The notes under the pieces are model-generated. The model ran no database searches. It had not been told where the DNA came from and saw nothing but the letters and a program-made list of their open reading frames with translations. Below are positions 2,671-20,687 of a DNA stretch of 20,734 bases, piece after piece; position 1 is the first letter of the stretch; each line of letters begins with the position of its first letter. The stretch covers positions 1 through 20,734 of the IMG/VR virus record IMGVR_UViG_3300028168_000194; one strand, 5' to 3'. This DNA is from a virus. Both the position numbers and the translations under genes were made by a program.

Positions 2671-2767
2671 TAATTGCTCCTGTCAATACAAGGTGTTAAA
2701 TGTTTAACAGGGCAACCTGCAATTAGGCCAAATCTCATATGAAACAGAGTATTTTCTCACACAAAAA

Positions 2768-2788
2768 CGACATCTTTTGCTTGACACA
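2768..2788. repeat. 21-base direct repeat, copy 1
   Basis: This is the first of two identical 21-base copies that share the core CATCTTTTGCTTGACAC. The second copy starts 59 bases further on, close to six helical turns. Both lie upstream of the small terminase gene. They may be binding sites for a late-gene regulator; no function is shown by the sequence itself. Confidence 0.7.
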
Positions 2789-2826
2789 TGCTTTTGAACC
2801 TAAAGTTGCCCTTCCTTACGATAAAG

Positions 2827-2847
2827 CGACATCTTTTGCTTGACACA
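2827..2847. repeat. 21-base direct repeat, copy 2
   Basis: This is the second identical copy of the repeat that begins at 2768, in the same orientation. Each copy contains TTGACA on the plus strand, but no convincing -10 element follows at 16-18 bases, so I do not call plus-strand promoters here. Confidence 0.7.
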
Positions 2848-2922: not shown

Positions 2923-3705
2923 CTAATCCAACTGGGCTATCAGGCTGGATTTGATAGGCTGTTCAATCATTATGAATTTAAGCGCATAGCTGGGATTATC
3001 CAAGTGATCGCTTACAAAGCGCTGGAAGTCACGGGCATACATGGGCTCAAACTGCATGCCGGACAGTACCTGGGCACGGTAGACATTCCAGGCACTTTTA
3101 TGCTTGAAGCGGCAATGGATCATCATGTGGCAGCGGTAGCAAAGGCCATACTTGCCGATGTTATCGCCGAAGGGCTCGCTGTAATCCTCGCTGTGGGCCT
3201 CGATTATCCCTTTAGTCTGCCCGCAGCAGTCGCACTTGACCGGATTGCTGCGCCGGCCGCCGGCGACTTCACCTTTTAGCCACTGCAAGGCTTTGAACCT
3301 CAATGCTGGTTTAAATCCGTTGTATGCGTTCATAAATGTTTTTACAACCTTCACGGCTCCGTTGGGCAGCCGGCCGTCTTCTTTAAATCCTCTCTTTAAA
3401 TAAAAATCCGGTTTAAGGGCATAGGCCTCTACACGGTTAGCCCCGCTTTCTATAGCCTCGTTCAATAAGTATTCTGTCAAGTGGGTGCCGATCCCTTTCC
3501 CTCGAACTGTAGGAACTACGTAGACGCCTTTAATTCTTATACCATTATTCGCAAGCGAAAGCAACCCTGCCATCCCCAGAATTCTACCGCCTTGCTCCAC
3601 CACGTTCCACACGGTTTTGTCGCTTTGTTTCAGGCTAACATGCTCACGTGCTGCTTTGGAAGCATACCCTTTGATCTCAATGAATGAACAAGGCCTAATC
3701 AACAT
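2923..3705 (-). CDS. GNAT acetyltransferase-like domain fused to HNH/zinc-finger-like domain
   Basis: This 260-aa protein has two parts. Residues 1 to about 125 look like a GNAT N-acyltransferase: strand-helix pattern, the acetyl-CoA pyrophosphate-binding motif VRGKGIGTHLTEYLL (68-82), and the late FYLKRGFKEDG (101-111) common in GNAT C-termini. Residues 150-260 carry paired metal-ligand motifs, C158-x2-C161 (KCDCCG), H171 in IEAHSEDY, C189-x2-C192-H193 and H197, arranged like a HNH/zinc-finger fold. The start ATG overlaps the end of the upstream ParB-like gene by 11 bases, so it is the last gene of an overlapping four-gene set. GNAT-fold enzymes can act on DNA bases (phage Mu Mom is the known case); whether this one does is inference. 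Alternatives are protein acetylation or drug modification. Confidence 0.75.
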   Translation of the reverse strand: MLIRPCSFIEIKGYASKAAREHVSLKQSDKTVWNVVEQGGRILGMAGLLSLANNGIRIKGVYVVPTVRGKGIGTHLTEYLLNEAIESGANRVEAYALKPDFYLKRGFKEDGRLPNGAVKVVKTFMNAYNGFKPALRFKALQWLKGEVAGGRRSNPVKCDCCGQTKGIIEAHSEDYSEPFGDNIGKYGLCYRCHMMIHCRFKHKSAWNVYRAQVLSGMQFEPMYARDFQRFVSDHLDNPSYALKFIMIEQPIKSSLIAQLD

Positions 3706-4213
3706 GCTTCGCCTTGCTTTCCGCCGGGTACCAGGCCTTGGAGTATTTCCAGTTCTTGGTATCTTTGGCCTTGAAGACGCCCTCCTGCATCAATAGGTTG
3801 ACCTCGTCCGGCGTGGCCCCAATCTCCTGGGCGACCTGCTCCGGCGGCAGGCCCAGGTCGTTGATCAGTTCCTTGACCAGCTTGGCCATGTCTACCGCGA
3901 CGGCTGAGCCCTTGGCGCGGTTCATCCGCACTGTCATAACCATGGCTGAAGCACGGTCAACGTCCAGGACGGCTGCCGGCACCATACCTTTATATTTTTC
4001 CTTTAAGGCCGGGCTCTCTTTACTCAGCATCCAGCGGTGAAAGCCGTCGATGATAACGTTATCCCTTGATATCAAGATCGGCTGCACCCAGCCGGTCTTG
4101 ATGATGCTGCGTTCCAGGAGCTTCAACTCCGGGGTGAATACGATGTTGGGATTGTAGTCGTTGGCCGTCAGTTCGTCGGCCTTGACCCAGGCGATATTAT
4201 CAATGGGTTCCAA
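3695..4213 (-). CDS. ParB-like (ParB/Srx fold) protein, IbrB type
   Basis: This 172-aa protein has a ParB N-terminal-like domain: SIIKTGWVQPILIS (36-49), then DGFHRW (56-61), then a run typical of IbrB-type proteins, TVRMNRAKGSAVAVDMAKLVKELI (94-117), followed by a helix-turn-helix-like stretch LPPEQVAQEIGATPDEVNLLMQEG. The start is a TTG (4211-4213) with a strong GGGAGG ribosome site seven bases away, and it overlaps the PAPS-reductase-like gene by 14 bases. IbrB-type proteins are known as constant partners of IbrA-type PAPS-reductase homologues in prophages. They were first described as activators of eib genes in E. coli, and their biochemical role is unclear. The family call is fairly secure; the function is not. 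Confidence 0.82.
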   Translation of the reverse strand: MEPIDNIAWVKADELTANDYNPNIVFTPELKLLERSIIKTGWVQPILISRDNVIIDGFHRWMLSKESPALKEKYKGMVPAAVLDVDRASAMVMTVRMNRAKGSAVAVDMAKLVKELINDLGLPPEQVAQEIGATPDEVNLLMQEGVFKAKDTKNWKYSKAWYPAESKAKHVD

Positions 4214-5303
4214 GTTTGAGTCCCTCCCGCTTTTGCTGGTCTTTGTTAATCGGTAAGATCACGCGCTTGTACGACCCGCTGAGGAAGTGCTTGAAGATGT
4301 GCAGCAGCGGGTAGGCAGCGCCGTTGAATTTATGCAGGTTGATGCAGGTCTCCATCGCCTCCACGGCGTTGACGTGCTCATGCTCGTCCTCGATGTTTTC
4401 GTCGATCCATGTCCTTATGCCTTCTATGCTCTGGCCGTATTTGGCCTTGACCGCTTCACGGTCTAAGTCCCGGTAATACCTCTCGTGGGCCAGCATCTCA
4501 GGGAATAGCTCGATCACCTGCTGATACAGCACCGGCTCGTAATGCCTCAATAAATGGAAGCGCTTGGCTGATTCGGCGTGCAGCGGCGTGGATACCCTTA
4601 AATTCTGTCCGGCCCACAGCTGTGAATCGTAGGTTGGGCAGTATTTAACGTCGTTATCGTAGAAGTATTTGAAGACGTCCTCTTCCAGCCAGTCGAAAAT
4701 GGGCTTGACCATCTTGACGTTGGGCACGTTCAACTGCCCGCCGCTCATTTTGGTCGGGGAGTTGATGTAGTTCTCGTTGAGCTTGTTGACGCTGGCCCGG
4801 TAACGGATCAGGCTCTCGCTGGAACGTATGCCCGTTACAAAGGCCTGCTTCCCCTTGAAAAAGGTAGAGACGTAGGCATCCATGGAGTATTGGTCGAAGG
4901 CCCGTTTATCATCTTTGGCCAGGGTAACGGCATAGTCGGGAGCCGGCCGGATGTGCCGGCGGTTCGGGTCCCACTGTATGTATTCGAAGGTTTTGCCCAG
5001 GACGTACTTCTTGCTCAACAACGGCACCGCGAAGTACAGCATGTTGACCCAGGGCTTGGCCCTGTACTCATTAACAAAATCGATCACCGATTGCTGTATG
5101 ATCTCCTCATCCCGGAAGACGACATTGACCTTGCTTATGCCCCTCTCCTCAGCGATTTCCCTGACCAATAACAGCGTTACCAGGCTGTCCTTGCCGCCGG
5201 AAAACATCACGACCACGCTGTCAAAGATATCAAAGACGTGCCGGATGCGGTCGCGGGCCTCACTCAAAACGTCCTGGTCGATGTAACGCTTAAACCTTGA
5301 CAT
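4200..5303 (-). CDS. PAPS reductase-like PP-loop protein, IbrA type
   Basis: This 367-aa protein belongs to the adenine-nucleotide alpha-hydrolase (PP-loop) superfamily. The PP-loop FSGGKDS lies at residues 34-40, followed by a Rossmann-like NVVFRDEEIIQQSVIDFV. Further on are GIRSSESLIRYRA and KPIFDWLEEDVFKYF, both typical of phage PAPS-reductase homologues. Such proteins activate a substrate with ATP and are used in sulfate reduction, tRNA thiolation and DNA phosphorothioation (DndC). I chose the ATG at 5301-5303 because the longer frame (to 5345) would overlap the upstream ParB-like gene far more. It is flanked on both sides by ParB-like genes with 14-base overlaps. No sulfate-assimilation genes are nearby, which argues against a metabolic role. 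Confidence 0.85.
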   Translation of the reverse strand: MSRFKRYIDQDVLSEARDRIRHVFDIFDSVVVMFSGGKDSLVTLLLVREIAEERGISKVNVVFRDEEIIQQSVIDFVNEYRAKPWVNMLYFAVPLLSKKYVLGKTFEYIQWDPNRRHIRPAPDYAVTLAKDDKRAFDQYSMDAYVSTFFKGKQAFVTGIRSSESLIRYRASVNKLNENYINSPTKMSGGQLNVPNVKMVKPIFDWLEEDVFKYFYDNDVKYCPTYDSQLWAGQNLRVSTPLHAESAKRFHLLRHYEPVLYQQVIELFPEMLAHERYYRDLDREAVKAKYGQSIEGIRTWIDENIEDEHEHVNAVEAMETCINLHKFNGAAYPLLHIFKHFLSGSYKRVILPINKDQQKREGLKLGTH

Positions 5304-5877
5304 GTAAGTCCAGTGATTCAATGAATATCTGCAGGCGCTGGGCAATGGTCTCGGCCTCAGGGTATTTGGCCTTTAACCATTTAATGAACTTGAACCAGCT
5401 TTCCTGCTGCTGTTCGTCGTCAAAGATGATGTTGTATTGGATCACTACGCCCTGCTCGCCCTGCTCCCCATCGCCTGGGTTAAACTGTGTCATCAGCTGT
5501 TCGATCTCTTTCTCATCGAAGCCGGTCAATGTCAGATCGAACTGGCCATCGTCTAAGTCCTGCAGGATGTCCTTTAAAGCCGGAAGATCCCAATCAGTCA
5601 ATTCCTGTATTTTGTTGTCAGCTATTAAATATGCATCAGCCTTGGCGCCTTCCAGGTCAAGGTAAATAACGGGCACCTCGGTCAGCCCGGCCTTTTCAGC
5701 TGCCTTTAACCTGGCATGGCCGGCCAGGACGTAACCGTCTTTTGAAACGAGAACTGGATTAGTCCAGCCGAACTCTTTAATACTTTTAACCAATTTGTTT
5801 AAGGCGCCTTCCGGGTGCTGCCGAGGGTTCCGCGGATGTGGTTTTAGTGAAGTGATTTTCACGGTTTTTACGTTCAT
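5290..5877 (-). CDS. ParB N-domain protein (phage type)
   Basis: This 195-aa protein begins with a textbook ParB/Spo0J N-terminal domain: ITSLKPHPRNPRQH (8-21), LVKSIKEFGWTNPVLVS (29-45), GYVLAGHARLKAAEKAG (48-64) and the VPVIYLD strand. The following LIADNKIQELTDWDLPALKDIL is common in phage-encoded ParB-domain proteins that lack the partition-type helix-turn-helix, so a chromosome-partition role is unlikely. It starts the four-gene overlapping cassette with the IbrA-type protein, a second ParB-like protein and the GNAT/HNH fusion. The start ATG is preceded by a G-rich stretch, and its ribosome site is not textbook. ParB domains are now known to bind CTP in partition proteins; whether this one does cannot be read from the sequence. 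Confidence 0.88.
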   Translation of the reverse strand: MNVKTVKITSLKPHPRNPRQHPEGALNKLVKSIKEFGWTNPVLVSKDGYVLAGHARLKAAEKAGLTEVPVIYLDLEGAKADAYLIADNKIQELTDWDLPALKDILQDLDDGQFDLTLTGFDEKEIEQLMTQFNPGDGEQGEQGVVIQYNIIFDDEQQQESWFKFIKWLKAKYPEAETIAQRLQIFIESLDLHVKV

Positions 5878-5889
5878 TTTAGTGTTAGA

Positions 5890-5901
5890 CCCCCCCTGGT
5901 C
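5890..5901. repeat. 12-base direct repeat C7TGGTC, copy 1
   Basis: A run of seven C followed by TGGTC, repeated exactly at 5969-5980 and followed in both cases by an A/T-rich ATT-containing stretch. It lies just upstream of the ParB-like gene start (minus strand). The role is unknown; each copy contains a CCTGG. Confidence 0.6.
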
Positions 5902-5968
5902 AATTCCGGGAATTTTTGCGTGGTGCTGGCCACCGGTTTCAAGAGATGAAGGCGTCAGCTATTTGATG

Positions 5969-5980
5969 CCCCCCCTGGTC
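5969..5980. repeat. 12-base direct repeat C7TGGTC, copy 2
   Basis: This copy is identical to the one at 5890-5901 and lies 79 bases away. It ends two bases before the -35 element of the plus-strand promoter at 5983, so it borders the junction between the minus-strand structural block and the plus-strand island. Confidence 0.6.
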
Positions 5981-5982
5981 TA

Positions 5983-6011
5983 TTGAAATACATATATTAT
6001 GCTGGTAGAAT
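5983..6011 (+). promoter_or_regulatory. Sigma70-type promoter for the 6049 gene
   Basis: TTGAAA (5983-5988) and TAGAAT (6006-6011) are separated by exactly 17 bases, with the expected start of transcription near 6018. A short inverted repeat CACCTA/TAGGTG (6016-6021 and 6028-6033) spans the predicted start and could be an operator or a leader hairpin. The downstream gene has an AGGGAG ribosome site. Confidence 0.65.
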
Positions 6012-6420: not shown

Positions 6421-6771
6421 TCAGCATTTCATACCGCCTTGTTCCGATCGATCTTTGCCGTGCTCTTTTGCATGACAGTCAACACAAAGGGCAACAAGAT
6501 TGCCACTGTCGTTGTTCTTCGGGTTCCTGTCCTTATGATGTACGACTTCTGCTGCTGTGATTCGCCCGGTCTGGTTACATACACCACATAATGGATTGTC
6601 CTTTAAATAAAGATGGCGAATTCTGCGCCAGGTGCTATTGTATCCACGTTGATTAGCGTTATCCCTGTAATTGTCTACTTCTTGACTATGTACTGCACAG
6701 TAACCGGCACGGTTATTGGTTAGATTGGGGCAGCCAGGGTGTCTGCAGGGGCGCTTTGGTTGATACGGCAT
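6421..6771 (-). CDS. HNH endonuclease (phage packaging-associated type)
   Basis: This 116-aa protein has two metal sites. The N-terminal one is a small zinc finger (C9, C14, C25, H28), and the second is a HNH nuclease core: C62-x2-C65, VVHHKDRNP (H78, H79), N91 in SGNLVALC, and C96-x2-C99-H100 with H104. The layout matches the HNH proteins (such as HK97 gp74) that many tailed phages carry close to their terminase genes and that assist terminase cutting. Here it is separated from the terminases by the ParB/IbrA/IbrB/GNAT cassette, and it sits between plus-strand accessory genes. It is probably part of the original minus-strand phage backbone interrupted by the island. The fold is secure; the packaging role is inferred. 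Confidence 0.88.
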   Translation of the reverse strand: MPYQPKRPCRHPGCPNLTNNRAGYCAVHSQEVDNYRDNANQRGYNSTWRRIRHLYLKDNPLCGVCNQTGRITAAEVVHHKDRNPKNNDSGNLVALCVDCHAKEHGKDRSEQGGMKC

Positions 6772-7874: not shown

Positions 7875-8762
7875 ATGGTCGCCAAAATGAAGTCAAAGAA
7901 ATTATTAGACATAGGTTGCGAGAAAATTTGTAGTTGTCCAGATAATCATATTAATTGCTTAACAGCAAAAGAGTGGATTAAAAGCCAGATTGCTCTCTGG
8001 GAATTCTCATATGAAAAGCGAGACATTAGAGATAAGAGCGTTCATCCTGCAGTATTCCCAATTGGCCTCCCAGCGAAGTGCATTAGCTTATTTACACATG
8101 AAGGAGAGCTGGTTCTTGATCCATTTGGTGGTATTGGCACAACTTTATTAGCAGCACAGGATCTCAACCGAAATGCTGTCGCCTTTGATCTTAAACAGGA
8201 GTTCGTTGATGTTGCAAATACTCGGTTGTCGCAGGGTAATTTACTAAATACAACCAAGCAAATAATGATTAAAGATGACGCTCGCAACATACCTGATTAT
8301 TTGAAAGAAAATACAGTCACGCTAGCAGTGACATCTCCTCCATATTCTCAATTCCTTGGTAAACCAAAATTAAATAAAAGCATGAGAGGCGATTTACGGA
8401 GTAATAAGCATTATTTAACTGTGCAACAATATTCGCAGGATCCAAATGACCTTGGCACATTAGAGCCGATTGCATATAGTAAAGCACTAGCGGAAATTTA
8501 TCGCGGTATACTTCCCTTGCTTAGGCCTAAATCCCATTGCGTAATCAATGTTAATGACCTTTGGTGGGAAAATAAGCGAATCCCAACCCATATATATATT
8601 GTGCAGGAAATGACTAACGTTGGTTACGAGTTGCGCAATATTCTGATCTGGGATAGGCGCAATCTAATTAACGGCGTCGGCATATTCGGGTGGCCAAATA
8701 ACTACATAAAATTGGGGACCACCATGGAATATATCCTGGACTTCTGGAAACCTCAGAGCTAA
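7875..8762 (+). CDS. DNA methyltransferase of a type II restriction-modification system (probably N4-cytosine)
   Basis: This 295-aa protein belongs to the N4-cytosine/N6-adenine amino-methyltransferases. The motif order is X (SVHPAVFPIGLPAKCI, 55-70), I (the AdoMet-binding VLDPFGGIGTT, 80-90), then IV (TSPPYS, 153-158), with a long variable region after it; this is the gamma-like order. The SPPY form of motif IV is usual for N4-cytosine enzymes. It ends tail to tail with an MvaI/BcnI-family endonuclease gene: the stop codons overlap in CTAA at 8759-8762. The methyltransferases that accompany that endonuclease family modify cytosine N4 in CCNGG-type sites; applying that here is inference. A TATAAT lies at 7850-7855 and an AGGAG at 7858-7862, though the spacing to the ATG (12 bases) is long. 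Confidence 0.9.
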   Translation: MVAKMKSKKLLDIGCEKICSCPDNHINCLTAKEWIKSQIALWEFSYEKRDIRDKSVHPAVFPIGLPAKCISLFTHEGELVLDPFGGIGTTLLAAQDLNRNAVAFDLKQEFVDVANTRLSQGNLLNTTKQIMIKDDARNIPDYLKENTVTLAVTSPPYSQFLGKPKLNKSMRGDLRSNKHYLTVQQYSQDPNDLGTLEPIAYSKALAEIYRGILPLLRPKSHCVINVNDLWWENKRIPTHIYIVQEMTNVGYELRNILIWDRRNLINGVGIFGWPNNYIKLGTTMEYILDFWKPQS

Positions 8763-9466
8763 AGTATCTGCTTGTAGTTGTCAAATAGCTCAAGGAAGTA
8801 TGTTTTATTTATCCTGAATCCTGTCCCATGATCGTGATACTTGCCTTTTGAACTGCCACTTCTGTATACCCCGATTCGTATATCCACCTTCAATCTATCG
8901 TTTAGAATGGCAGTCTTAAATTTGGCTATACTTAATTCGGATAGTAGGAATGCTTCTATATAGTGGAATTGTTCTGTTGCCGTTTTGCGTTCTCCCTTAG
9001 TCTCAGCAAATACCAACAGTATTTTATTCGATTTTGCCTTTAGTACATCATCAAATACAGTTATAGGCCAATATGCTTCTATATTCCCTTTATTAGAAAG
9101 ATACAATTTATTATCTTTAAATATCGATTGGAAACCTAAATTGTTTGGTTTTGACCCATCAACAGTTGTGTGTAGTCCATATTCGCCTAAATTGTCTTTA
9201 TATTTATAAGCCTCAAAGAGTAGCCGGTTGGTGCCCTTAGGGTTCGGGCTTTTAGTCGCAAGTGTAAGCATGCTACCGCTGTCAATTCTTTTTGCTTTAA
9301 GCTCTATATCACCGATATCGGGTAATTTAAGATTGTTTTCCTTCAACCCTAATAAATCCTCCAGAGTTTTCCCTATGCCAGTATCGTGAGCTCGGTGCGT
9401 TGTTACGAAATCCATCGCCTTGATTTTTACTAATTCTTTATGGACATCCTCAAGCGTTTTCATCAT
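8759..9466 (-). CDS. MvaI/BcnI-family type II restriction endonuclease
   Basis: This 235-aa protein matches the MvaI/BcnI restriction endonuclease family, monomeric enzymes known to cut CCWGG or CCSGG. The diagnostic N-terminal run is present: HRAHDTGIGKTLEDLLGLKENN (24-45), followed by the metal-binding core PDIGDIELKAKR (49-60), with D50/D53, E55 and K57 as candidate catalytic residues, then SMLTLATKSP. I moved the start to the ATG at 9464-9466 because AGGAGGCC lies six bases upstream, and the longer frame adds 27 residues not expected in the family. It has its own promoter (9503-9531). The substrate site cannot be read from the sequence; CCNGG-like is the expectation from the family. Confidence 0.9.
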   Translation of the reverse strand: MMKTLEDVHKELVKIKAMDFVTTHRAHDTGIGKTLEDLLGLKENNLKLPDIGDIELKAKRIDSGSMLTLATKSPNPKGTNRLLFEAYKYKDNLGEYGLHTTVDGSKPNNLGFQSIFKDNKLYLSNKGNIEAYWPITVFDDVLKAKSNKILLVFAETKGERKTATEQFHYIEAFLLSELSIAKFKTAILNDRLKVDIRIGVYRSGSSKGKYHDHGTGFRINKTYFLELFDNYKQIL

Positions 9467-9502
9467 TAAGCTGGCCTCCTGCTTCACATATCTATGGCAT
9501 AC

Positions 9503-9531
9503 AGAATACTCTGTCCAGTTTACATAGACAA
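9503..9531 (-). promoter_or_regulatory. Promoter of the restriction endonuclease gene
   Basis: On the minus strand TTGTCT (9526-9531) and TATTCT (9503-9508) are 17 bases apart, four of six matches each to the sigma70 consensus. The predicted start is near 9496, giving a leader of about 30 bases before the AGGAGG-preceded ATG. It is divergent from the promoter of the ASCH gene. Confidence 0.5.
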
Positions 9532-9561
9532 GAAACTTAACAATCAATCATGAAATGCAGG

Positions 9562-9567
9562 TATAAT
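9562..9567 (+). promoter_or_regulatory. TATAAT -10 box before the ASCH-domain gene
   Basis: A perfect TATAAT lies 18 bases before the ATG at 9586. The best -35-like sequence, TTAACA at 9537-9542, is 19 bases away, so the promoter would be suboptimal. If it is used, translation must start at 9586 rather than at the earlier in-frame ATG (9550). Confidence 0.4.
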
Positions 9568-9585
9568 TATGAAGCAGGTTATTTG

Positions 9586-10038
9586 ATGTTGGGAGAGAAG
9601 TTCATTTTGATTTCAATTCAACCACGCTATGCTGAGAAGATATTTATGGGTGTGAAGACAGTTGAATTTAGAAGGGTATTTCCCCATGTTGTGCATGGTA
9701 GATACATGTTTGTTTATATATCATCCCCGATCAAAGCAATTTCGGGTTTCTGTGAAGTTGCCAATATCTTCCTAGGGGATATTGACGATTTATGGAATAG
9801 ATATAAATTGTCGGGTGGTATATCAGAAAAAGAATTCTCTCAATATTTCCGCGGGAAAGATCGGGGTTATTGCGTTGAAATAGCTTCCGCCCATGTTCTA
9901 GACAAACCAATAAAATTACAGAATATAAGGGCAGACTATTCCGCCTCAGAAATACCCCATCAATTTACCCCTCCTCAAAACTATTGCTATATTGGAAAGG
10001 ATCATCCGCTTTACAATTTGTTAATAAGGTCAATTTAG
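9586..10038 (+). CDS. ASCH-domain (PUA-like) protein
   Basis: This 150-aa protein looks like an ASCH domain: FILISIQPRYAEKIFMGVKTVEFRRVFP (6-33) has the typical start (S-x-x-P-x-Y-A-x-x-I-x-x-G-x-K-x-x-E-x-R), followed by GRYMFVYISSPIKAISGFCEV and the late TPPQNYCYI. ASCH domains share the PUA/EVE-like barrel that binds RNA or modified nucleotides and often accompany defence genes. I prefer the ATG at 9586 because the domain begins directly after it and a TATAAT overlaps the first codons of the longer frame (from 9550). It is divergent from the restriction endonuclease and 48 bases ahead of a nuclease-like gene. A role in sensing nucleic-acid modification is inference. Confidence 0.72.
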   Translation: MLGEKFILISIQPRYAEKIFMGVKTVEFRRVFPHVVHGRYMFVYISSPIKAISGFCEVANIFLGDIDDLWNRYKLSGGISEKEFSQYFRGKDRGYCVEIASAHVLDKPIKLQNIRADYSASEIPHQFTPPQNYCYIGKDHPLYNLLIRSI

Positions 10039-10086: not shown

Positions 10087-11139
10087 ATGAAAGATCCATG
10101 CGAAAATTTCCCGCAACTAAACCTCAGTAGCGCTGAAGCACTTAGAGACGTTCTGAGGCGTGATAAAGACACTCGATTGGAGGGTATTTGTATTGAACAT
10201 GTATTTCAAAATGATCTCTTCCCTTGCGATGGCCCAACATTAGCTATATCGGACGGTTGGTGGCTATTACGTAAGCCGCGCAGCATCGAAGACTACTGTC
10301 TCTTTAAGTTTTCTGACGGTCCCCTCACAATCATTGACCTACGCGTGATCAAGAAACTGCTCGAGCTTAAAATAGAATGCTATTTAATCCGTGTCTACAT
10401 AGGAACGACAAATGAGTTCCGGGGCATAAAGCTGGATATCAACAATATAGATAAACCGGCCATTCTGCAGAGCGTCGATACTTATGTGCCGGTTTCAATT
10501 ATCTTTTCCAACATAGGTGCCGTAACTTGCAGCGCTCCTGCGATGCCTAATCAAGGAGTCACTTCCGCGCGCCAGAATCAAGCCATTGAATTGTTGGTTG
10601 AATTCGGTCAGTTACGATTTGCTGCATTGCAGCGGCTGTTTGCAAATTGCTTTCTATCATCCTACTTTCAGAGCGTATGGGACGTAGATGGGTTCATATT
10701 CAACGGTAACAGTCTCGCCGTGTTAGAAGTCAAGCAGAAATATCCTTCTGCAAGCGGAACATTCGGAATAAATGTAGGCGTTAGTAAATGGATGTCATGG
10801 TTCCATAATCGTGGAGTGGAAGTATTTCATTTCATACTGACGAAACCTATTTGGGATTTTCGATCCCCTGCACTCGATATGATCAGTGACCCTAAATATA
10901 AAGCCAACTCTCTATGGTTGGGATCCAAGATAAACCCTTCAATGTTCACAGGGACCGCCAGCACTTCCCCCACTAGAACGTCGATATATACCAACTATCG
11001 TCTACCGTATCTCAATGTACCAGTAACTGCGTTCCATTTGATAAAAACGCTTGGGAAAGGGATCTCTAACCTAAGTGCTTTCTTAGAGGGAAGAACTCGC
11101 CCGATATCAAGTATTACAGACATACCCCGGCTGCGCTAA
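10087..11139 (+). CDS. PD-(D/E)XK-type nuclease candidate, unknown family
   Basis: I do not recognise this 350-aa protein as a named family. Residues about 160-260 have the arrangement of a PD-(D/E)XK nuclease core: a helix (NQAIELLVEFGQLRFAALQRLFAN), then VWDVDGFIF with D199/D201, then LAVLEVKQK with E214 and K216, then a glycine-containing stretch and a helix-strand HNRGVEVFHFILT. The N-terminal 150 residues form a separate region with no motif I know. It follows the ASCH-domain gene and precedes a small unknown gene in the same direction, directly beside a complete restriction-modification pair. Possible roles are a second restriction enzyme or a modification-dependent nuclease. The fold call is moderate; the biological role is open. 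Confidence 0.65.
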   Translation: MKDPCENFPQLNLSSAEALRDVLRRDKDTRLEGICIEHVFQNDLFPCDGPTLAISDGWWLLRKPRSIEDYCLFKFSDGPLTIIDLRVIKKLLELKIECYLIRVYIGTTNEFRGIKLDINNIDKPAILQSVDTYVPVSIIFSNIGAVTCSAPAMPNQGVTSARQNQAIELLVEFGQLRFAALQRLFANCFLSSYFQSVWDVDGFIFNGNSLAVLEVKQKYPSASGTFGINVGVSKWMSWFHNRGVEVFHFILTKPIWDFRSPALDMISDPKYKANSLWLGSKINPSMFTGTASTSPTRTSIYTNYRLPYLNVPVTAFHLIKTLGKGISNLSAFLEGRTRPISSITDIPRLR

Positions 11140-18500: not shown

Positions 18501-19078
18501 ATGAACACCGAGTTTGCGCAATTACTCAGGCAGCTAAGGGTTAGAAAGGGTTTATCGCAGAAAAAACTGGCGGAGTTGGTGGGCATCAGCCAGGTTTCGA
18601 TCTTCCGCATGGAGCAGGGGGAAGTAGAAAAACCCACCGCAAAGGTTCTGGAAAAGCTGTCCAATATCCTGGACGTAGATATACACAGCTTGATCAAGTC
18701 GTCGATCCCTGATTACAAGATACCGTTTGAATTACCCGATCATTTAATAAACAGGCTGCAACTGATTATGCCAGTTGCGGTGCCGGTGGTGGCAGAATTG
18801 CATATGCCGGGTGAGATTTTAGAGTACGTCTACGTGGAGCGGCCCAGGGTTGGCCCAGTCGATTATGTGGGCATCCGGGCCAAAGGCTTCTGCATGGAGC
18901 CGGAGATACTGGACGGCGACACCATCATCCTCGACCGAAACGCCCTTCCTGAAGCTGGCAAGACAGTGCTGGTGTTCCACAATGGTGATGAGGAACCTCG
19001 CCTGATCAAATATAAGGCCAAGGAAGATTTTAAGAATTGCGATATCTACGGTGTCGTGGTGTGCATCGTGAGGAAGAT

Positions 19079-19082
<4 letters not shown>
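18501..19082 (+). CDS. HTH repressor with LexA/S24-like domain, altered active site
   Basis: This 193-aa protein is the likely prophage repressor. The N-terminal Cro/CI-type helix-turn-helix is clear: LLRQLRVRKGLSQKKLAELVGISQVSIFRMEQGEVEKP (8-45). The C-terminal half aligns with the S24/LexA autoproteolysis domain, AVPVVAEL (93-100), then YVGIRAKGFCMEPEILDGDTIIL (122-144). The catalytic serine of the usual GDSM is replaced by cysteine (C131 in GFCM). The Ala-Gly cleavage site expected after the VPVV strand is absent (LHMPGE instead). The candidate lysine, K170 in RLIKYK, remains. The protein may therefore not self-cleave in an SOS response. Its stop overlaps the integrase start by four bases, so both are expressed together. 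Confidence 0.88.

Positions 19083-20687
<1,605 letters not shown>

Follow-up and report, generated by a model that had tools for sequence, protein, structure and literature searches.

A conserved ParB1-IbrA-IbrB gene cassette with an interchangeable tailoring enzyme in phage genomes, a candidate DNA modification system

The virus record IMGVR_UViG_3300028168_000194 of IMG/VR carries, in the 20,734-nucleotide stretch analysed here (positions 1 to 20,734 of the record; hereafter the window), a cassette of four overlapping genes. In order of transcription they encode a ParB/Srx-fold protein (ParB1), an IbrA-like PP-loop enzyme, an IbrB-like protein that also has a ParB domain, and a GNAT acyltransferase followed by a zinc/HNH-like domain. 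Here we report that ParB1, IbrA and IbrB form a constant core in dozens of divergent viral loci, and that the GNAT occupies a slot filled elsewhere by unrelated enzymes. Because the tailoring enzyme is interchangeable, the cassette is more informative than a preliminary description of the window had suggested. In our judgement it may well be a modification system, with the DNA of the phage itself as its most likely target, in which the core is constant and the tailoring module interchangeable.

The window, a 20.7-kb fragment of a virus, encodes a serine integrase and a repressor and contains early genes; its terminase genes are on the minus strand. The four open reading frames (ORFs) of the cassette lie on the minus strand between the early region and the terminase genes, just upstream of the latter. 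The preliminary description had placed all four correctly, with overlaps of 14 nt (5303-5290), 14 nt (4213-4200) and 11 nt (3705-3695), and the sole coordinate correction concerns the IbrA-like gene, whose start according to its homologues is the ATG at 5303, the TTG at 5345 being too early. The domain calls of that description (ParB-like, PP-loop, IbrB-like ParB, and GNAT with zinc/HNH-like domain) were borne out by matches in Pfam, NCBIfam and PHROG.

A search of virus contigs with the PP-loop protein gave 49 loci, to which an alignment-based search added more. Hidden Markov models (HMMs) of the components were run over 210 loci, and removal of near-copies left 63 loci with a window-type IbrA; 38 of these have complete flanks and, together with the window, make up a full-flank set of 39. 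ParB1 and IbrB accompany the window-type IbrA in 39/39 full-flank loci and the HNH-like protein in 31/39. Dozens of divergent virus contigs, with IbrA identities of 34-67%, repeat the order ParB1-IbrA-IbrB together with a transferase and the HNH-like protein. Gene order varies by lineage (ParB1-IbrA-IbrB-X-HNH, ParB1-IbrA-X-HNH-IbrB or HNH-IbrB-ParB1-IbrA-X) while the content is kept, so the association is more than an inherited linear order. The cassette is conserved beyond chance and is no local accident. The co-occurrence of all four genes that had been proposed as a check was thus strongly confirmed for the core and for the recurring cassette, but the GNAT is not its obligatory fourth part. 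A TerL homologue lies at most 5.6 kb downstream in at least 23 of the 63 loci; the count is a lower bound obtained with few terminase families as queries, and it leaves out terminase matches overlapping cassette genes, which were spurious alternative-frame matches. At two loci (L024:4605-6008 and L035:3998-5416) the ParB1-like protein is encoded in an open frame of about 470 aa, and its N-terminal ~270 residues have no Pfam match. Large proteins (459 and 528 aa), for which Pfam gave no convincing match, are encoded just upstream of ParB1 at L052:2007-3386 and L211:1710-3296, in the Arthrobacter phages Kovu and Wheelbite.

The GNAT slot adjoins IbrB or IbrA, and in other loci it holds a class-I methyltransferase-like protein (phrog_11826). 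Among the 39 loci, 17 have only a GNAT, 16 only a methyltransferase, none has both and six have neither (Fisher p=2e-6). Methyltransferase matches at L160 and L163, 2.8-3.5 kb upstream, are doubtful and were kept out of the tailoring-module trees, although L160 is still in these counts. On the IbrA tree the occupant (GNAT or methyltransferase) switched at least 12 times, also between well-supported neighbours. A natural swap pair is provided by Kovu, with an acetyltransferase as gp8, and Wheelbite, with a methyltransferase as gp8: the two genes occupy the same position, with IbrB on one side and the terminase genes on the other, and the DNA on both sides of the slot is 75-80% identical. Further swap pairs are L013/L020 and L149/L143.

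The GNAT domain of the window was modelled with AlphaFold2 (AF2) at a predicted local distance difference test (pLDDT) score of 92, and Foldseek matched it to GNATs, including coenzyme A (CoA) complexes, with prob 1.0. Its acyl-CoA loop RGKGIG is canonical (motif A, R/Q-x-x-G-x-G/A), its closest matches are ordinary acetyltransferases, and no Mom family was present among its Pfam, NCBIfam and PHROG matches. Classical bacterial loci of Pseudomonas aeruginosa PA7, Achromobacter, Sphingomonas, Azoarcus, a deltaproteobacterium and Dactylosporangium also have a GNAT between IbrA and IbrB, and some viruses place it likewise. Pfam identifies most of these interposed proteins as GNATs, and the HMM derived from them matches the window GNAT at 2.8e-9.

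A third occupant is an ectoine-synthase (EctC) domain, which is fused to IbrB in mycobacteriophage Gaia gp104 (PF06339, 1.3e-32) and is a separate gene in a Planctomycetota locus. An EctC-like domain is fused with IbrB, as is usual, or adjoins it in 80/80 further virus loci, 43 of them non-redundant by EctC sequence; these loci come from many samples and form a biased set, having been fetched with the Gaia IbrB, itself an EctC fusion. Acidic, Tyr and His residues are conserved in these domains, and the other slot enzymes were absent from the 80 loci by the HMMs used. The GNAT is therefore one of at least three mutually exclusive slot occupants (GNAT, class-I methyltransferase and ectoine-synthase-like cyclase), and what the cassettes have in common is not Mom-like chemistry. 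A 'cysteine dioxygenase-like' gene has been described near a PAPS-reductase-like gene in the Mycobacterium abscessus prophage prophiGD21-3 (genes 20 and 23; PMC8092301). Gene 20 might be an EctC-type slot enzyme, because cysteine dioxygenase and EctC are both cupins.

The C-terminal half of the window's fusion protein matches no Pfam family and has the invariant pattern CxxC...HxExY...CxxCHxxxH (C,C,H,E,Y,C,C,H,H). The CxxC and CxxCH pairs and one His are conserved, the HH/DH pair of the usual beta-beta-alpha-metal motif of HNH endonucleases is incomplete, and there is no Pfam HNH match. The GNAT/HNH fusion noted earlier is present but private to the window; in nearly all relatives the HNH-like protein is encoded by a separate, co-inherited gene, in adjacent ORFs at L007, L009-L011, L013, L014, L016, L036, L037 and L042, and the fusion was rejected as the essential novelty for this reason. 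Across the 36 loci with both proteins, the occupant label changes 9 times on the IbrA tree, 8 times on the IbrB tree and 9 times on the ParB1 tree (shuffle mean ~11.8), as against 2 changes on the HNH-like tree, a value as low as which occurred in 0/500 shuffles. The transferase and the HNH-like gene have thus been replaced together against a stable core. The sequences show this co-inheritance as well as the conserved cassette, the division into core and slot, the mutual exclusivity of the occupants and their repeated swapping. A separate, ordinary-type HNH is encoded in the window at 6421-6771 (phrog_144, 3e-28), so the cassette's HNH-like domain is extra, and its identification as the packaging HNH was rejected.

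In the IbrA-like protein a PAPS_reduct domain with PP-loop is present. The PP-loop and a GxR..ES..R region are invariant in the alignments. In 16-25 aligned members we found neither the C-terminal ECGxH cysteine motif of CysH nor a CxxC or an Fe-S cysteine set of the APS-reductase, DndC or TtcA type. The sole invariant cysteine, C236 in YCxxY, is also present in the aligned segment of human FAD synthase. An AF2 model predicted from an alignment of virus-contig rows (pLDDT 85.5) has FAD synthase, CysH and the ATP sulfurylase CysD as its nearest Foldseek matches, followed by NcsA/TtuA and TilS; matches to DndC are weak (1e-4 to 2e-5). DUF3440 was absent from the window protein at E<=0.01 and is found in classical IbrA (6e-55 in Gaia, 6e-52 in CHPC1148). 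The window-type IbrA belongs to a family apart (phrog_2302), and its identity to IbrA of the bacterial loci retrieved is mostly 25-31%. FAD synthase and ATP sulfurylase transfer AMP, and the adenylating members of the fold share adenylation of an oxygen followed by its substitution. The CysH and DndC cysteines are thus lost, and the PP-loop, like the acyl-CoA loop of the GNAT, is intact. Given the missing catalytic cysteines and the likeness of the fold to FAD synthase, CysH and ATP sulfurylase, sulfate assimilation is very unlikely, and phosphorothioation is less likely than an adenylation-driven modification. The analogy with DndC drawn in the preliminary description therefore survives in the fold and the ParB-fold partner but not in the sulfur chemistry.

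Several features point towards DNA. ParB1 matches phrog_620 (1.4e-52) and the 'DNA methyltransferase' phrog_498 (1.3e-47), PADLOC MTase_II PDLC03229 over its ParB part (2.8e-31), and Spo0J/ParB in the PDB (7e-10); its closest relatives occur as ParB domains in fusions with phage and type II DNA methyltransferases. The ParB_N match of IbrB (4.3e-4) is below the Pfam cut-off, and its alignment with ParB-family PDB chains (3e-6) extends through the helix-turn-helix (HTH) part. IbrB has the traits of its family, namely the DGFHR and RxNRAKG motifs and a position near IbrA in 39/39 loci, and DGFHR is presumably comparable to the DGQHR-type motifs of ParB-fold modification partners. ParB_N is thus seen in both ParB1 and IbrB and an HTH in IbrB, and no ParA was recognised among the window proteins scanned. 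SNF2-like or PD-(D/E)XK genes adjoin classical IbrA. There are also precedents: the ParB-fold proteins DndB and DpdB act in DNA modification systems (PMC10853773, PMC12839542), and phage loci for 5-carboxymethylcytosine with an AMP-forming ligase (CmoA/CmoX/CmoY) often carry a ParBc gene (PMC12783734). The kinship of ParB1, the HTH of IbrB, the vicinity of the terminase, the neighbours and the precedents are converging hints at DNA, not proof.

In the mechanism that we propose, ParB1 and IbrB would bind nucleotide and DNA and position IbrA on its target. The PP-loop of IbrA would adenylate a target oxygen, in a carboxylate or in the carbonyl of a base, and thereby allow an amine-type group to be installed. 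The GNAT would acylate this group; in sister phages, the finishing would fall to a class-I methyltransferase or to an ectoine-synthase-like cyclase. Acetylation, methylation and cyclising condensation, the chemistries of the three occupants, are all reactions of amines or amides, from which we infer that the core makes an amine-bearing product. The HNH-like zinc protein, matched to the tailoring enzyme, would probably bring that enzyme to the core or the DNA. The system would act late, next to packaging, to shield progeny DNA from host nucleases, and slot swaps would change the final chemical face of the DNA. In its most specific form, which we advance only tentatively, the proposal would be a new DNA hypermodification system across tailed phages worldwide, in which the ParB1-IbrA-IbrB core puts an amine-bearing group on a base and the slot enzyme converts it to the final acyl amide (GNAT), methylamine (methyltransferase) or cyclic amidine (EctC-like). 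The DNA-directed modification put forward in the preliminary description remains the best reading, with DNA as the presumed substrate, although the Mom-like GNAT chemistry suggested with it is not the common part.

A number of observations weigh against a DNA modification system of this kind. Six of the 39 loci, the Phlyer group included, are without a recognised slot enzyme, and at L149/L143 the transferase was swapped without the HNH-like gene, which lies on the opposite strand there; physical adjacency could partly explain the co-inheritance of the two. Residue 104 of the window's IbrB is Ala where ~98% of relatives have the His of the RAKGxH motif, so that the window copy could be impaired or altered in activity; the IbrB proteins of L163, L139 and L142 likewise are without this His. 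The core has no DNA-specific catalytic domain (base-flipping methylase, tRNA-guanine transglycosylase (TGT) or hydroxymethylase). The GNAT and class-I methyltransferase families act equally on proteins, RNA and small molecules, and the cassette methyltransferase matches, weakly, small-molecule types (UbiG, ToxA). We found no biochemical or mass-spectrometric evidence on any cassette member, and the only IbrAB phenotype reported is activation of the eib prophage genes in E. coli (Sandt 2002, cited in PMC7649339).

The main rival keeps the same core-plus-tailoring logic and directs it at a non-DNA substrate, such as tRNA or rRNA, a free amino acid or nucleotide, or a protein, for instance the terminase or the RNA polymerase of the host; we regard it as a lesser but real possibility. 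PP-loop enzymes often work on tRNA or free nucleotides, the nearest folds of IbrA include the small-molecule enzymes FAD synthase and ATP sulfurylase, the methyltransferase affinities just given fit as well, and the known role of EctC is on a free amino acid. The HTH of IbrB, the HNH-like partner, the kinship of ParB1 with methylase-fused ParB domains and the terminase neighbourhood speak for DNA instead. It is unlikely that IbrA and IbrB act as a transcription co-activator of host or prophage genes, the role given in annotations that derive from E. coli IbrAB. Homologue names and annotation, the eib result, and the HTH and ParB folds agree with such a role, but it leaves the intact PP-loop active site and the swapping of acyltransferase, methyltransferase and cyclase unexplained, and DNA modification could activate genes as a side effect. 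Slightly less likely again is DNA phosphorothioation or base thiolation, with IbrA as a DndC/TtcA-like sulfur transferase. A PP-loop enzyme with a ParB-fold partner resembles DndC/DndB, the weak DndC matches agree, and the one invariant cysteine could matter since, as in LarE, a single cysteine can donate sulfur; a DndC likeness was already noted for an M. abscessus prophage (PMC8092301). This cysteine is shared with FAD synthase, however, and the Fe-S cysteines are lacking. Neither a cysteine desulfurase nor DndD/DndE was recognised among the window proteins scanned, a dedicated search in all loci not being part of that scan, and acetylation, methylation or cyclisation would have no obvious role on a phosphorothioate. 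Adenine modification by a Mom-like GNAT alone, with the other genes as accessories, is improbable: the GNAT fold and the late position near packaging recall Mom, but half of the loci keep the core and have unrelated enzymes in place of the GNAT, and the GNAT has a canonical acyl-CoA loop and ordinary acetyltransferases as its closest matches. Finally, an auxiliary metabolic PAPS reductase (cysH) that boosts host sulfate assimilation, as most phage records annotate the gene and papers have read it (PMC9301287, PMC6145125), was rejected as highly improbable on catalytic residues and context, since the CysH and APS-reductase cysteines are missing, IbrA is always tied to ParB-fold partners and, as the preliminary description had also stated, no other sulfate gene was recognised nearby among the proteins scanned, which cover part of the ORFs of a fragmentary record.

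The coordinates of the cassette features are given in Table 1. Two 36-nt direct repeats, 83% identical and spaced by 59 nt, lie between the cassette and the gene for the terminase small subunit (window 2753-2847). Just upstream of ParB1, CCCCCCCTGGTCAATT at window 5890-5905 recurs with one mismatch at 5969-5984 and is a possible operator. A promoter and terminator scan remained at chance level (4 against 4.4 and 5 against 5.0). Elsewhere in the window, a type II restriction-modification pair consists of a methyltransferase at 7875-8762 (+; PADLOC PDLC03363, 5e-124) and a convergent MvaI/BcnI-family endonuclease at 8759-9547 (-). Next to it, at 9550-10038 (+), comes PDC-M11B, a candidate defence protein. 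A 350-aa ORF at 10087-11139 that adjoins the restriction system has no Pfam, PHROG or PADLOC match. A tRNA-Met gene at 20613-20687 (-) overlaps the 3' end of the serine integrase (19037-20656), whose C-terminus reads GAGFEPATFGL; this overlap is probably the attachment site.

Table 1. Features of the cassette, with positions counted from the first nucleotide of the window.
Feature	Position	Strand	Match or remark
ParB1, ParB/Srx-fold, first cassette gene	5290..5877	-	Pfam ParB_N 1.3e-10
IbrA-like PP-loop ATP-pyrophosphatase, 367 aa	4200..5303	-	Pfam PAPS_reduct (PF01507) 3.1e-16; phrog_2302 7e-107
PP-loop SGGKDS (window VMFSGGKDSL)	5184..5201	-	invariant across all aligned homologues
IbrB-like, ParB_N domain then HTH-like segment, TTG start	3695..4213	-	phrog_2159 6.6e-70
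DGFHR motif of IbrB, near-invariant	4034..4048	-	
GNAT and HNH-like fusion gene	2923..3705	-	
GNAT acyltransferase domain, residues 1-124, RGKGIG acyl-CoA loop	3334..3705	-	Pfam Acetyltransf_1 6.5e-12
Zinc/HNH-like domain, residues 125-260	2923..3333	-	phrog_2340 'endonuclease' 4.8e-6

IbrA and IbrB have been described as prophage co-activators or as virulence-related (PMC4541368, PMC7649339), and phage 'cysH/PAPS reductase' is counted among the globally conserved auxiliary metabolic genes, from which viruses have been argued to drive sulfur cycling (PMC9301287). In the open-access literature, the part covered by our search as opposed to subscription papers and preprints, we found neither a functional study of the cassette nor a description of its core-plus-slot organisation. 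Since the residues of this IbrA family exclude a PAPS reductase and its ParB-fold partners are constant, at least part of the argument for viral sulfur cycling has to be read anew. The same may hold for the cassette methyltransferase, whose weak best matches include UbiG, which is also on the auxiliary-gene list of PMC9301287. If the cassette modifies DNA, it would explain the long unresolved chemistry of IbrA/IbrB and would provide a modification system with interchangeable finishing steps, together with isolated phage pairs that differ mainly in one finishing enzyme. If the core with swappable finishing holds, chemically different phage DNA would arise from one shared core.

The cassette resembles several known systems in part. 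With ectoine synthase EctC it shares, in one branch, a PF06339 domain that adjoins IbrB or is fused to it and has conserved residues; EctC itself is not in the window, and as no GNAT was found in the EctC-like loci by the HMMs used, this is not an ectoine operon. Like Mu Mom, it has a GNAT-fold enzyme in the late region of a temperate phage, but here the GNAT is a replaceable module tied to a PP-loop core. In the 7-deazaguanine system Dpd, the ParB-like ATPase DpdB similarly assists a base-modifying enzyme, whereas the cassette has neither a TGT nor queuosine-type genes. CmoA-CmoX-CmoY, which makes phage 5-carboxymethylcytosine and then its glycine amide (PMC12783734), offers the same logic of a handle and an AMP-forming PP-loop ligase, often with ParBc on the same contigs; the cassette differs in having no CmoX-type C5-methyltransferase and a PP-loop enzyme of the PAPS-reductase/FAD-synthase type, not of the asparagine synthetase type. 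DndBCDE/Ssp is DNA-directed and has a PP-loop enzyme and, in Dnd, the ParB-superfamily protein DndB; in contrast, the cassette is without the Fe-S and dyad cysteines and has tailoring enzymes instead, and no DndD/E or desulfurase was seen among the window proteins scanned. The IbrA/IbrB pair of E. coli ECOR-9 and of prophages, whose classical IbrA combines PAPS_reduct with DUF3440, has the same PP-loop/ParB-fold pairing and the same IbrB family (phrog_2159). To this pair the cassette, with a phrog_2302 IbrA in which DUF3440 is not detectable, adds ParB1, the tailoring enzyme and the HNH-like partner.

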